Positions 33,644 through 37,137 of a stretch of DNA of 64,000 bases are shown in pieces. The notes under the pieces were generated by a model. That model was given only the letters and a program-made list of their open reading frames with translations, made no database searches and had not been told where the DNA came from. The DNA comes from Methanoculleus horonobensis (GTDB lineage Archaea > Halobacteriota > Methanomicrobia > Methanomicrobiales > Methanoculleaceae), in NCBI RefSeq assembly GCF_001602375.1, contig NZ_BCNY01000015.1:496001-560000 (forward strand). The letters run 5' to 3'. The first letter of the stretch is position 1. Each line of letters begins with the position of its first letter. Made by a program: the position numbers and the translations under genes.

Positions 33644-33713
33644 GGAGAAGGTCCGCCGCCGGTGTAAGGATGGGTGTCGTGCCGGCTTTTGGGGCGCACG
33701 CTCGTCTGCCGGT

Positions 33714-34094
33714 GTGATATGGAGAATGGACATCGGGTTACGTCGGTCGGGGTGTCGCGGCAGAGATGCTGCGTCAATCCCGGTTGATGTATACTCCAAT
33801 GCGGTCCCTAAGTTCTGTCCGGTTGGCTGGATCTCGGTGCAGTCCTGTACCTGGAGGAGATCTATCACGTTGGATCCATCCGGCATCTTCGGCTCGTGCC
33901 GGCGCGGCGAGGAGCACGAGGGAAGCGATGTGGACATCCTGGTCGAGTTCTCCGAGGTGCCGGGGATCTTCGGGTTCCTCAGGCTCGAGCGGTACCTCTC
34001 CGAGATCCTCGGAAGGAAGGTGGACCTGGTTGAAAAGAGCGCACTCAAACCCCGTATCGGCCACCGTATCTTGAACGAGGTTCTCTACGTATGA
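33714..34094 (+). CDS. MNT-type nucleotidyltransferase, degenerate N-terminus
   Basis: The C-terminal 65 residues are a normal minimal nucleotidyltransferase: FGSCRRGEEHEGSDVDILVE (GS-x11-DxD) and KVDLVEKSALKPRIGHRIL. Upstream residues do not resemble the usual N-terminal helix, and no good start is seen; the coordinate given is the GTG at the limit of the open frame. Such proteins are antitoxins for HEPN/DUF86 RNases by AMPylation. The stop overlaps a new ATG (ATGA), but that partner ends after 19 codons in the 40-bp repeat, so its toxin gene is lost. Confidence 0.55.
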   Translation: MIWRMDIGLRRSGCRGRDAASIPVDVYSNAVPKFCPVGWISVQSCTWRRSITLDPSGIFGSCRRGEEHEGSDVDILVEFSEVPGIFGFLRLERYLSEILGRKVDLVEKSALKPRIGHRILNEVLYV

Positions 34095-34116
34095 CGGCTC
34101 CGAGAAGCGCCCTGAG

Positions 34117-34156
34117 TGGACACATTTTGTTCCACATGGAACATTTTTGAACCAAT
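34117..34156. repeat. 40-bp direct repeat, left copy, with palindrome
   Basis: This block matches 35498-35537 at 39 of 40 positions in the same orientation. It contains the perfect palindrome TGTTCCACATGGAACA (34128-34143). On the minus strand it encodes MFHVEQNV, the first residues of the HTH-nucleotidyltransferase at the right copy. Here the frame ends after 19 codons. It also truncates the plus-strand frame that should follow the MNT gene. It is the scar of a second gene copy or of recombination. Confidence 0.88.
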
Positions 34157-34184
34157 ACCTGGAAACGGCCCTGTCTGCCTTGCC

Positions 34185-34415
34185 TTACCCATCGCCATGC
34201 ACCGGTTCGGGGCGGTGCCGCCGGGCCTGATGCATCCGGAGGTAATCGGATCGGGAAAGAGCGAAGTTTCCGGCATTTTGAAAGAACGCATCGATCAGGT
34301 CGGCCTGTTCGCGGCTCCAGACCTCGTTTGGAACCTCCCTGACCCGGAGGGCATGCCTCCGAACAAAGACCGGCCGCTCCTGCCGGTTCTTCTCGCGATC
34401 AAACCCCAATTCCAT
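34185..34415 (-). CDS. Small hypothetical protein downstream of the HEPN gene
   Basis: The 76-residue frame starts at an ATG behind GGGGGAG. It reads LGFDREKNRQERPVFVRRHA, NEVWSREQADLIDAF and FALSRSDYLRM, with good helical periodicity and a basic tail. Its start overlaps, in another frame, a short Leu/Glu-rich frame ending FMECLQVRGEPYGIGV, which may be the end of a further small gene starting near the HEPN stop. I recall similar sequences near archaeal nucleotidyltransferases but cannot name a family. It may be an accessory part of the module. Confidence 0.5.
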   Translation of the reverse strand: MELGFDREKNRQERPVFVRRHALRVREVPNEVWSREQADLIDAFFQNAGNFALSRSDYLRMHQARRHRPEPVHGDG

Positions 34416-34510
34416 ACGGCTCCCCCCTGACCTGCAGGCACTCCATGAACGATCGCAGGAGATCGCCATCCAGCATCTCCCGGAACACACCCGGGGCATC
34501 CTTGACACTG

Positions 34511-34996
34511 TCACTCGTCCGGCCCTTCTAAGAGCCGCACTGCTTTTTCCCTGAGGCGTGAGATGTCCCCCTGGTGCAGGCGCTCCATGGAATCGAGCAA
34601 GTCTGCACAGAACGTCTCAGCCTCCTCTATCGAGTCACGGACATCCTCTGCCGTGATCGCGAAGTCCACATAGTACTGCTTATCGATTCGCTCTCTTTTG
34701 GCGGCGACAATCCGGGAATTGTCAATTCCATACAGGTTCTCAAGGAGGATCGTTGCGCCGGAGTGGTTTTCGCATTTTATACCGGTCTTGAAGAGTAGGG
34801 CAAGCACCATGTAGTACATGCTGTAGTATGCCATCGATACCGTCTCTTCAAGCCGCCCGTTCTCGAGCAGGATCTTTGCCGAGACGAGAAAACTCTCTGA
34901 CTTCTTACGGTATGCCTCCTGGATCTGAGTGCTTGGCTCAACGAGCCGGATCTTCCCTTCATCGTAGAGTTTACTCAAAAACCCCTGTTTTTTCAT
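34511..34996 (-). CDS. HEPN-domain protein
   Basis: The 161-residue helical protein carries the HEPN core: KSESFLVSAKILLENGRLEE and VSMAYYSMYYMVLALLFKTG, then CENHSGATILLENLYG. The classic RNase motif R-x4-6-H is not obvious; at its place stands KTGIKCENH. It overlaps the HTH-nucleotidyltransferase by 26 bp and is the likely toxin or regulatory partner. Known HEPN-MNT pairs are toxin-antitoxin systems, but the missing Arg leaves RNase activity uncertain. Confidence 0.85.
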   Translation of the reverse strand: MKKQGFLSKLYDEGKIRLVEPSTQIQEAYRKKSESFLVSAKILLENGRLEETVSMAYYSMYYMVLALLFKTGIKCENHSGATILLENLYGIDNSRIVAAKRERIDKQYYVDFAITAEDVRDSIEEAETFCADLLDSMERLHQGDISRLREKAVRLLEGPDE

Positions 34997-35525
34997 AATA
35001 CCGTTCGACTCCCTTCACGATGATGTGATTCTTTGCGATCTCCCGAATCAACAGATTTTCCGGATCCCAGGCTCCGATCTTCACGCTGAGCCTCGAGTGG
35101 CAACGCTCCAGTTCTCGTTTCACCTCTCTATCATCTGTCTCGATATAGAGATCGATGTCGCTCTTCTCATCCGCAGTTCCTTTCGCATAACTGCCGAAGA
35201 TTATGGCAAGCGGGATATCCCGTCTCTCCTGGATCGTCCTGATGACTGATCGTAGATGAGGGGCCTTTTCAATCAGGTTTCCGAGCGCGTACCACTCCAC
35301 TACATAGACGTGCACCCGCGCTTCAAGAGTTTTCTTCAGGAAATAGGTTCTATTTTTCCCCTCTATCCTGAAGTCTACGACGTTCCCGTCTAATAAGTCC
35401 TTAAGTCTCCGCAACACGGTGGTGTGTGAAACGTTCAGATCTTTTGCAAGTTTGCGGGGGTGCGAGTCGCCCCTGAGCAGGAGAGCAACGATCTTGATGG
35501 ACACATTTTGTTCCACATGGAACAT
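34971..35525 (-). CDS. HTH-nucleotidyltransferase (MNT) fusion protein
   Basis: The 184-residue protein has an N-terminal winged helix-turn-helix (HPRKLAKDLNVSHTTVLRRL, residues about 20-65) and a C-terminal minimal nucleotidyltransferase with FGSYAKGTADEKSDIDLYI (GS-x10-DxD). The start codon lies in the right 40-bp repeat, so the palindrome TGTTCCACATGGAACA covers codons 1-6. The fused HTH could bind it and shut off its own translation start or promoter. It probably AMPylates or neutralises the HEPN partner encoded next. A CTTTTTACC stretch near 35545 may be the TATA region. Confidence 0.88.
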   Translation of the reverse strand: MFHVEQNVSIKIVALLLRGDSHPRKLAKDLNVSHTTVLRRLKDLLDGNVVDFRIEGKNRTYFLKKTLEARVHVYVVEWYALGNLIEKAPHLRSVIRTIQERRDIPLAIIFGSYAKGTADEKSDIDLYIETDDREVKRELERCHSRLSVKIGAWDPENLLIREIAKNHIIVKGVERYYEKTGVFE

Positions 35526-35537
35526 ATTTGAACCAAT
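35498..35537. repeat. 40-bp direct repeat, right copy, with palindrome
   Basis: This is the partner of 34117-34156. The palindrome is at 35509-35524 and overlaps the ATG of the HTH-nucleotidyltransferase gene. The segment between the repeats (34157-35497, about 1.3 kb) holds the three minus-strand genes of the module. Either a duplication followed by loss of one copy, or excision and integration by homologous recombination, could give this layout. Confidence 0.88.
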
Positions 35538-35673
35538 CGGTAAAAAGGTTGTGGCTGTTCCTGGCTAAACACCGGAACGGCGGATCGCGCCTGCCTTGTC
35601 GACTCACGTGAAGACCTGCCGGTGACGGGGTTGTGTGAAGCGTTTCCGGCTGTAAAAAAGCGTTACCGGGGGT

Positions 35674-37137
35674 TCACGCAGAGCCTTCCCGCTCCGCGTC
35701 CTTCTTCCGGTAGCCTTCGAGCAGGATCGTCGTCAGGTTCTTGACGGGCACGTCCGTGCAGTCCGCGATGTGGAACTCGCAGAACGGGCAGACCGTCACC
35801 ACGACGTCCGCGCCGGTCGCCTTCACGCACTCGTCGCGCTTCGCCCCGAGGGCACTGGCCTCCTCAGGCACCCCCGACCGGACGCCGCCGCCGGCACCGC
35901 AGCACTGCGTCGGCATCTCCACAAACTCCCGGACGGCCCCGCGGAGGAGCGTCCGCGGCTGCTCGCTGATCCCCTGGCCGCGGAGGAGGTGGCAGGGGTC
36001 ATGGTAGGTCGCCCGGATATCGAGCTTCGCCGGGGGCTCGATCCCGTACTCGGTGAGGATCTCCGTGACGTCTTTGACCGTAAACGGCGTCTCGTAATCG
36101 TTCTTCAGCGTCGCCCCGCACCCGGCGCAGATCGTCATCACGGTTGTGATCCCACGGCTGGCGAAGGCCTCGATGTTCTTCTTCTTAAGATCCTCTACAT
36201 ACGACGTCTGCCCCGTCCGGATCAGCGGCGAACCGCAGCAGACCTGGTCGTGGGGGACGATCACCCGGATGCCGTTGCGCTTCATCACTTCCATCGCGTC
36301 GAGCGCCGTCTGCGGCACCCGGCCGTTGAACATGCACCCGACGAAGAACCCCACCTCGCCGCGGACGGGGCCGTCGGGCTCGATCACCTCCGGCACCTGC
36401 TCGAGGAATGTGGCTTTCGTCCGCTCGACGCTCCGGCCGGTCTCCTGCACCAGCCGTGCCACCTCCTGGTGGCGGGGGAGGGTCAGCCCGCGGCGGTTCG
36501 CGATCTCACGGAGTTTCTCGATCGCTTTGCCCGGGATCTCGATCTCTTTCGGGCAGACCTCCGTGCAGCGCTTGCAGGTCGTGCAGTAGAAGAGCCCCTT
36601 CTCGATCGCGTCGGTGATCCTGTCCCCCGAGTCGCGGGGATCGAGGGCGAGGCGCATCTCCTGCCGGAGCACCGTCGGGCCGGCGAACTCCGTCACCTGG
36701 AGCGCCGGGCAGGCCGATACGCAGCAGAAGCACTCGATGCAGTCCCGGAGCGGCTTGATCGCCTCGATCTCCTCTTTTGTCGGGAGCCCTGCATCCGGTG
36801 CCGGGCATATCCGGGCGATCTTCGCGATCACCGGTTCCAGGTCGACCACCAGGTCTTTTAAGACCGGGAGCGCCAGCGGTTCCACCGTCATCCCGTCGCG
36901 GGCCTCCTCCATGCAGGCGAGGACGGGCTTTCCGTCCACCCGGACGGCGCAGCTCCCGCACTGCCCCGACCCGCAGCAGTAGCGGTAGGCAAGGGTCGGA
37001 TCGTGCCCGTCGCGGACGGCGTGGAGGGCGTGGAGCACCCGGGCCCCCTCGTTGACCCGGACGACGTACTCCTCGACGTGCGGCTCCGTATCCATCGCCG
37101 GGTCGAAGCGCGAGACCCGGAGGGCGATCGTCTTCAT
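35674..37137 (-). CDS. tfrB: Thiol:fumarate reductase subunit B
   Basis: The 487-residue protein fuses a succinate-dehydrogenase-type iron-sulfur subunit with a heterodisulfide-reductase-like part. The [2Fe-2S] ligands are in YCCGSGQCGSCAVRVDG and the distal Cys in VLACMEEA. Two ferredoxin motifs follow, CIECFCCVSACP and CTTCKRCTEVCP. Two CCG domains follow, with VCCGSPLIR and CGAGGGVRSG. It oxidises CoM-SH and CoB-SH to the heterodisulfide while TfrA reduces fumarate. ATG 37137 overlaps the tfrA stop by 4 bp. Confidence 0.95.
   Translation of the reverse strand: MKTIALRVSRFDPAMDTEPHVEEYVVRVNEGARVLHALHAVRDGHDPTLAYRYCCGSGQCGSCAVRVDGKPVLACMEEARDGMTVEPLALPVLKDLVVDLEPVIAKIARICPAPDAGLPTKEEIEAIKPLRDCIECFCCVSACPALQVTEFAGPTVLRQEMRLALDPRDSGDRITDAIEKGLFYCTTCKRCTEVCPKEIEIPGKAIEKLREIANRRGLTLPRHQEVARLVQETGRSVERTKATFLEQVPEVIEPDGPVRGEVGFFVGCMFNGRVPQTALDAMEVMKRNGIRVIVPHDQVCCGSPLIRTGQTSYVEDLKKKNIEAFASRGITTVMTICAGCGATLKNDYETPFTVKDVTEILTEYGIEPPAKLDIRATYHDPCHLLRGQGISEQPRTLLRGAVREFVEMPTQCCGAGGGVRSGVPEEASALGAKRDECVKATGADVVVTVCPFCEFHIADCTDVPVKNLTTILLEGYRKKDAEREGSA

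Follow-up and report, generated by a model that had tools for sequence, protein, structure and literature searches.

We identify a toxin-antitoxin-like gene pair in a 64,000-nucleotide stretch of archaeal DNA (hereafter the window) whose antitoxin very probably represses its own operon. By this account, an operator centered on the start codon mediates autorepression by the wHTH-MNT protein, and a second, near-identical copy of the operator to its left is the stump of an older MNT gene. We further consider it likely, if with less assurance, that the locus exemplifies an archaeal wHTH-MNT/HEPN layout in which the leaderless start codon (CAT/ATG) is the dyad of a four-half-site operator, and the repressor, the transcription start and the translation start share base pairs. 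Such a layout would have been retained across the range from Methanomicrobiales to DPANN archaea, and by at least two families, with half-site and recognition helix changing together.

In the mechanism that we propose, the right repeat would be both operator and core promoter for a toxin-antitoxin-like module of the class II HEPN-MNT type. A TATA-like element ~27 nt upstream would set the transcription start at the GTG (ATG in other lineages), yielding a leaderless mRNA; half-sites H1 and H2 would lie between this element and the start, H3 and H4 would follow within the gene close to its start, and the dyad (CAT/RTG) would fall on the start codon. The N-terminal wHTH domain of the MNT antitoxin is predicted to bind these half-sites, with His34 reading the half-site G, and the protein seated over the start site would keep its own operon from being transcribed. 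With its MNT domain (GSX10DXD) it would presumably nucleotidylate or otherwise neutralize the HEPN protein, the putative toxin. The left repeat would be what remains of the 5' end of an older MNT gene in this insertion hot spot, and the present HEPN-MNT pair probably arrived next to it later. Comparison of homologous loci documents the operator conservation, the start codon, the TATA spacing, the co-variation and the insertion history; binding, repression, toxicity and nucleotidylation are inferred, and there is strong comparative support for the prediction that the antitoxin binds an inverted repeat at its own promoter, as autoregulated antitoxins do.

The HEPN-MNT pair and its relation to known systems

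The sequence-only reading had called a HEPN/nucleotidyltransferase module, and Pfam searches bear this out: the ORF at 34971-35525 (minus strand) recovered NTP_transf_2 (37.1 bits; cut-off 21) and Polbeta (40.9 bits; cut-off 26.9) along with an HTH, and that at 34511-34996 (minus strand) recovered HEPN (PF05168; 49.6 bits; cut-off 22). The nucleotidyltransferase signature GSX10DXD is intact in the MNT protein (GSYAKGTADEKSDID, residues 111-125 of the 184-aa ORF), with its glycine, serine and both aspartates invariant across 81 sequences. An AlphaFold2 model of the wHTH-MNT protein, obtained with 81 homologues (pLDDT 94.0), has its recognition helix at 31-43 and its wing at 47-60; the first residue of this helix is residue 34 (31 counted from the GTG), which is a histidine here. 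Foldseek matched the N-terminal domain (~75 residues) to the SqrR/SmtB/CzrA repressors with a probability of 1.00, a fold assignment also recovered by hmmsearch, and the C-terminal domain to MNT antitoxins. With the NCBI MntA equivalog model NF047752 the protein scored 33.6 bits, under the cut-off of 60.

A HEPN gene comes right after the wHTH-MNT gene in 77 of 94 homologues; among the remaining 17 loci, 12 have a HEPN gene that is broken, partial or missed by the ORF filter, and two more end near a contig edge. Alignment of the HEPN homologues revealed YYxMY, G72, ENH78, K100 and R103xD105xQYY as invariant or near-invariant. The RX4HXY or Rx4-6H RNase motif, which we sought in the HEPN protein, is absent; R103xDxQYY is invariant there instead, and the conserved H78 lies elsewhere. 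Given that the Rx4-6H motif is missing, toxicity of the HEPN protein is not assured. At several loci (L041, L047, L049, L177, L180 and L206) the HEPN gene is truncated or frameshifted and the adjacent wHTH-MNT frame is open, as would be expected if the toxin is the costly part.

On its sequence features the pair is classified as a class II HEPN-MNT, toxin-antitoxin-like module. Like other members of this class (PF05168/PF01909), which are common in archaea, it combines a HEPN lacking RX4HXY and bearing conserved tyrosines with a GSX10DXD MNT (PMC7641770); no biochemistry was known for the class as of 2020 (PMC7641770). Its R103xD105 and the conserved H78 elsewhere recall the HEPN-T variant, in which some PF05168 HEPNs have Asp for His and a His elsewhere (PMC3710099). 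With the class I, type VII HepT/MntA system (SO_3166/SO_3165) it shares an MNT gene that is upstream of and overlaps the HEPN gene, as well as GSX10DXD (PMC4621449, PMC7641770), but it differs in its fused wHTH, its predicted leaderless start and start-codon-centered operator, and its HEPN without RX4HXY. MntA of Shewanella has no predicted DNA-binding domain, yet binds and represses its own promoter, where two dissimilar palindromes lie near -10 and -35 (PMC4621449). The N-terminal ~75 residues have the fold of ArsR/SmtB-type repressors (SmtB, CzrA, SqrR), although here they are fused to an MNT domain. As in autoregulated type II toxin-antitoxin operons, the antitoxin gene is upstream and its product, predicted to bind DNA, would act at an inverted-repeat operator of its own operon; here, in contrast, there is an archaeal core promoter, a probably leaderless mRNA and a start codon at the operator dyad. 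According to a 2009 survey, the antitoxin was not likely to regulate transcription, and a component acting in trans was proposed for DNA binding (PMC2701414). None of the openly accessible papers that we searched describes an MNT subfamily fused to a wHTH and having a start-centered, co-evolving operator. Class II HEPN-MNT pairs are among the most abundant archaeal gene pairs; with its defined operator and its predicted transcription start and specificity-switching residue, the present one offers a concrete and inexpensive way to test the control of one subfamily.

Predicted operator, start codon and core promoter

The direct repeats 34117-34156 and 35498-35537 (Table 1) have a spacing of 1381 and extend to 55 nt at 85% identity. 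Both the 39 of 40 matching bases and the palindrome that the sequence-only reading had reported in each repeat are confirmed: TGTTCCACATGGAACA occurs at 34128-34143 and 35509-35524, though as an imperfect palindrome with 7-bp arms and a CA/TG center. A chance origin of a 39/40 match within 64 kb is negligible. A pattern search of the whole 2.45-Mb genome, which answers the earlier call for a count of copies, recovered just these two, both at MNT starts; hence the 40-bp repeat is not a dispersed repeat, and the regulator would have the module itself as its target.

Table 1. Features of the locus, in window coordinates; half-sites are given in gene sense.
Feature	Position	Strand	Basis or remarks
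Stub ORF, 19 codons	34085..34144	-	Shares the frame of the old MNT start; peptide not conserved
Left repeat, operator remnant of an older MNT gene	34117..34156	-	Relatives hold the same remnant with up to 27-33 MNT codons; drifts like neighboring DNA
Resident (ancestral) segment	34157..34492	-	~76-codon ORF (34185-34415) and the final ~30 codons of a gene for a 200-aa nucleotidyltransferase; adjoins the left repeat in relatives
Inserted segment: HEPN, wHTH-MNT, operator and promoter	34493..35657	-	G000/G057/G076 lineage; replaces the 200-aa nucleotidyltransferase gene
HEPN (PF05168) gene	34511..34996	-	26-nt overlap with the MNT gene; invariant R103xDxQYY and ENH78, no Rx4-6H; Pfam
wHTH-MNT gene	34971..35516	-	Probable start GTG 35516; first-listed ORF from ATG 35525; Pfam, AlphaFold2, start-codon comparison
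Right repeat, predicted functional operator	35498..35537	-	Conserved in 31/31 Methanomicrobiales and 94 pan-archaeal homologues; complementarity, co-variation
H4 GTGTCCA	35504-35498	-	Half-site of right repeat
H3 TGGAACA	35515-35509	-	Half-site of right repeat
H2 TGTTCCA	35524-35518	-	Half-site of right repeat
H1 TGGTTCA	35535-35529	-	Half-site of right repeat
TATA-like element CTTTTTAC	35540..35547	-	24-31 nt upstream of GTG 35516; position-specific A/T peak in 94 homologues

The start and promoter were compared across 94 non-redundant homologues ranging from Methanomicrobiales to DPANN archaea. All 94 have ATG (62) or GTG (32) as codon 4; codon 1 is not ATG, GTG or TTG in 23, and in four the first three codons include an in-frame stop. 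Because CAYRTG served as the anchor for aligning the 94 starts, the invariance of this hexamer is partly one of construction; it is found near 110 of 111 starts. A TATA-like A/T peak occupies -31 to -24 from codon 4 in these homologues, with an A-rich BRE-like element at -36 to -34. In archaea, a TATA box 24-31 nt ahead of codon 4 is at the spacing that the core promoter has when transcription starts at that codon. The gene probably begins at codon 4, GTG 35516 (35516-35514, the palindrome center), and not at ATG 35525; this start and the TATA distance together make the gene most likely leaderless from GTG 35516, with the start codon at the dyad. The description of the right repeat as covering codons 1-6 thus stands for the ORF from ATG 35525, but codons 1-3 are probably untranslated, and the ORF-finder start of many of these genes is probably three codons off. 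With a leaderless start, the mRNA would not include H1 and H2, a point against an RNA element. Where lineages use ATG, the dyad center is the self-complementary CATATG; the middle of the Methanoculleus palindrome is imperfect because its start is GTG.

The start codon coincides with the dyad of the right-repeat operator, and the DNA around it is near-invariant in 31 Methanomicrobiales homologues (49-100% protein identity), including the 12 nt upstream of codon 1. Here the operator reads TGGNNCA-n4-nGNNCCA-TG-TGGNNCA-n4-nnNNCCA, i.e. four half-sites, with H1 and H2 pointing toward each other before the start and H3 and H4 likewise after it. We used the nucleotidyltransferase motif, and no operator sequence, to search 84,980 genomes and took the best 80 loci, which include Woese-, Pace-, Aenigm-, Nano- and Micrarchaeota, Hydrothermarchaeum, Methanoperedens, Methanofastidiosum and two bacterial MAGs. 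The four-half-site layout is kept in these best 80 loci with altered half-sites (TGTAACA, TGTCACA, TGGTTCA, TGTACCA and others), and throughout the 94 homologues inverted half-sites flank the start codon with CAT/RTG at the dyad, their sequence differing among lineages. Complementarity of H2 with H3 and of H1 with H4 exceeds that under permutation at k=3-6 and 14-16, in a shuffle among homologues that ignores relatedness.

The same arrangement recurs in a second wHTH-MNT family of ~30% identity (20 loci, L255-L274, e.g. L258, L267 and L271-L273): in most of the 20 the operator is TTAGACAT/ATGTCTAA or a similar sequence, and its dyad (slash) falls on or near the start codon. HEPN-like genes, recognized by eye from YYSMYY, ENH and RxxxQYY and not by Pfam, follow the MNT gene in all seven second-family loci checked.

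Two other readings of the conserved bases deserve consideration. The motif is in frame in most homologues and might merely reflect the protein N-terminus MFHVEQ, but the DNA pattern stays despite stops or non-start codons within codons 1-3 of many homologues, reaches 10-12 nt upstream of codon 1, and the residues shift with the half-site, as when F2 to N and E5 to V change together in G222; we regard this explanation as extremely unlikely. We give almost no credence to the idea that the gene captured a parS-like partition site or some other chromosomal site. In Methanomicrobiales the palindrome is one base away from the classic bacterial parS TGTTCCACGTGGAACA, and this resemblance in sequence is all that speaks for a parS-like site, which we reject on copy number and on divergence with the recognition helix: the genome has two copies only, both at MNT starts, and other archaea have TGTTACATATGTCACA and others that diverge together with the MNT recognition helix.

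Some further occurrences were recorded. The bacterial MAGs with homologues (L167 and L181, labeled Syntrophomonadaceae and Stahlbacteria) may represent transfer or mis-binned contigs; viral contigs gave 3 weak, partial matches only, and a search of plasmids found no homologues. Orphan operator copies were inspected in G011, G070, G106, G134, G140, G192, G193, G219 and G229. A regulon of such orphan operators was considered and rejected: where the flanks are readable, they look like decayed 5' MNT stubs and not like promoters of other genes. In two genomes of one genus (L137:2588 in G193 and L140:2503 in G192) MNT homology stops right after the operator, with the same unrelated sequence beyond. 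An operator-like site just upstream of a UDP-GlcNAc-epimerase-like gene (L131:2624-2662 in G119), with no close MNT homologue nearby, may be a remnant or a captured operator.

Co-variation of the recognition helix with an operator base

When base 3 of H3 was compared with all protein columns (~170), mutual information was highest at residue 34, the first of the recognition helix. His is paired with G in 70 of 71 instances (one His occurs with A), Gln with T in 17 of 17, and Pro or Leu with A, T or G in 6. In a Pagel test of residue 34 against H3 base 3 the dependent model beat the independent one (LR 47.7, 4 d.f., p=1.1e-9, to be discounted, ~2400-fold if all sites are counted, as residue 34 is the best of ~170 columns); other variable residues tried gave LR values of 1-12. 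The tree used, built from columns outside the HTH, is poorly resolved, with 46 of 90 forks open. The strictest pairwise test retained just 2 supported independent pairs, nearly always in the expected direction and too few for significance. Exceptions to the His-G rule are L222, L225 and, later, L245; a later search of the phylum gave nine loci, some duplicating earlier records, all with His34 and all but L245 (A) with G.

The co-variation points to a one-residue/one-base specificity code, His-G and Gln-T, which strongly supports autorepression. The sequence-only reading had raised the possibility that the HTH binds the palindrome, thereby blocking its own start; conservation, promoter geometry and helix/operator co-variation now strongly support that prediction. 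If the shared layout holds, it would provide a readable one-residue/one-base specificity switch (His-G, Gln-T), and HEPN binding and MNT nucleotidylation could tune operator occupancy. The homologues would also form a naturally occurring set of repressors with their matching operators, of use in work on DNA recognition.

The left repeat and the history of the locus

The site lies between the 3' ends of two genes that we take to be ablB-like (GNAT family; 3' end 33643) and tfrB-like (3' end ~35674). The interval between them (window 33644-35673) is an insertion hot spot in Methanoculleus, ranging from ~30 bp to 1.2-2.6 kb with differing content; in G054 and G070 the two genes are ~30 bp apart with nothing inserted. 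In seven relatives (G051, G056, G077, G069, G071, G062 and G063) there is a single repeat, accompanied by at most 27-33 codons from the start of an MNT gene, and immediately to its right a match to window 34157-34492 at ~85-89%; in G051 and others this counterpart consists of a small ORF and the 3' end of a 200-aa nucleotidyltransferase gene. G057 has the same two-copy layout as the window, its left repeat likewise contiguous with 34157-34492. As the two adjoin each other in relatives, left repeat and segment are old residents of the site; the right repeat arrived with the inserted HEPN-MNT pair. The insertion is bounded on the left at ~34492/34493 and on the right within 35538-35680, homology to the relatives resuming at 35658-35680; among the loci compared, only G000, G057 and G076 have the right flank 35538-35660. 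The left copy had been described as a stub of the same gene, which is right in kind, a 19-codon stub opening there, but it is the 5' remnant of an older MNT homologue at the site. We regard the left copy, from these comparisons, as the stump of that older gene.

The near-identical direct repeats flank genes and relatives with a single repeat exist, as would be the case if, as had been proposed, the 40-bp repeats delimited a mobile module of 1.4 kb and recombination removed it, one repeat staying behind. The comparisons do not support this. The ends of the insert, at ~34492/34493 and within 35538-35680, miss the repeats, and the single-repeat relatives are built otherwise: next to their repeat they have 34157-34492, which is inside the supposed mobile part, and never 35538 onward. 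The excised form that the earlier reading had suggested looking for in relatives did not turn up among the loci compared: the junction 34156/35538 gave no continuous match there, matches stopping at the repeat on either side, and no empty site with one repeat joined to both flanks was found among them. Moreover, two MNT genes with the same operator explain both stub and insert, and G076, the closest homologue (99% MNT identity), has kept the module and lost the left repeat by a small deletion. Excision is thus very improbable, except perhaps as a rare event in a culture. A functional left operator, for instance as a second site for looping or repressor titration 1.38 kb from the first, appears somewhat less remote and still improbable: the left copy matches the right one at 39/40 with H1-H4 intact in this genome, but across nine genomes its mean pairwise identity of 0.892 indicates no extra constraint relative to the adjacent 329 bp (0.885), its TATA element has been lost, and G076 does without the left repeat. 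We therefore retain the older MNT stump, a neutral remnant, as the preferred reading of the left copy.

The window has a further MNT-like ORF (33714-34094, plus strand), which matches PADLOC PDC-S09 at 72 bits, falls below the cut-off of the MntA model and lacks an adjacent HEPN partner. Over its first ~50 residues the protein has the look of a fusion or a fragment, and such ORFs are scattered near MNT loci in relatives.
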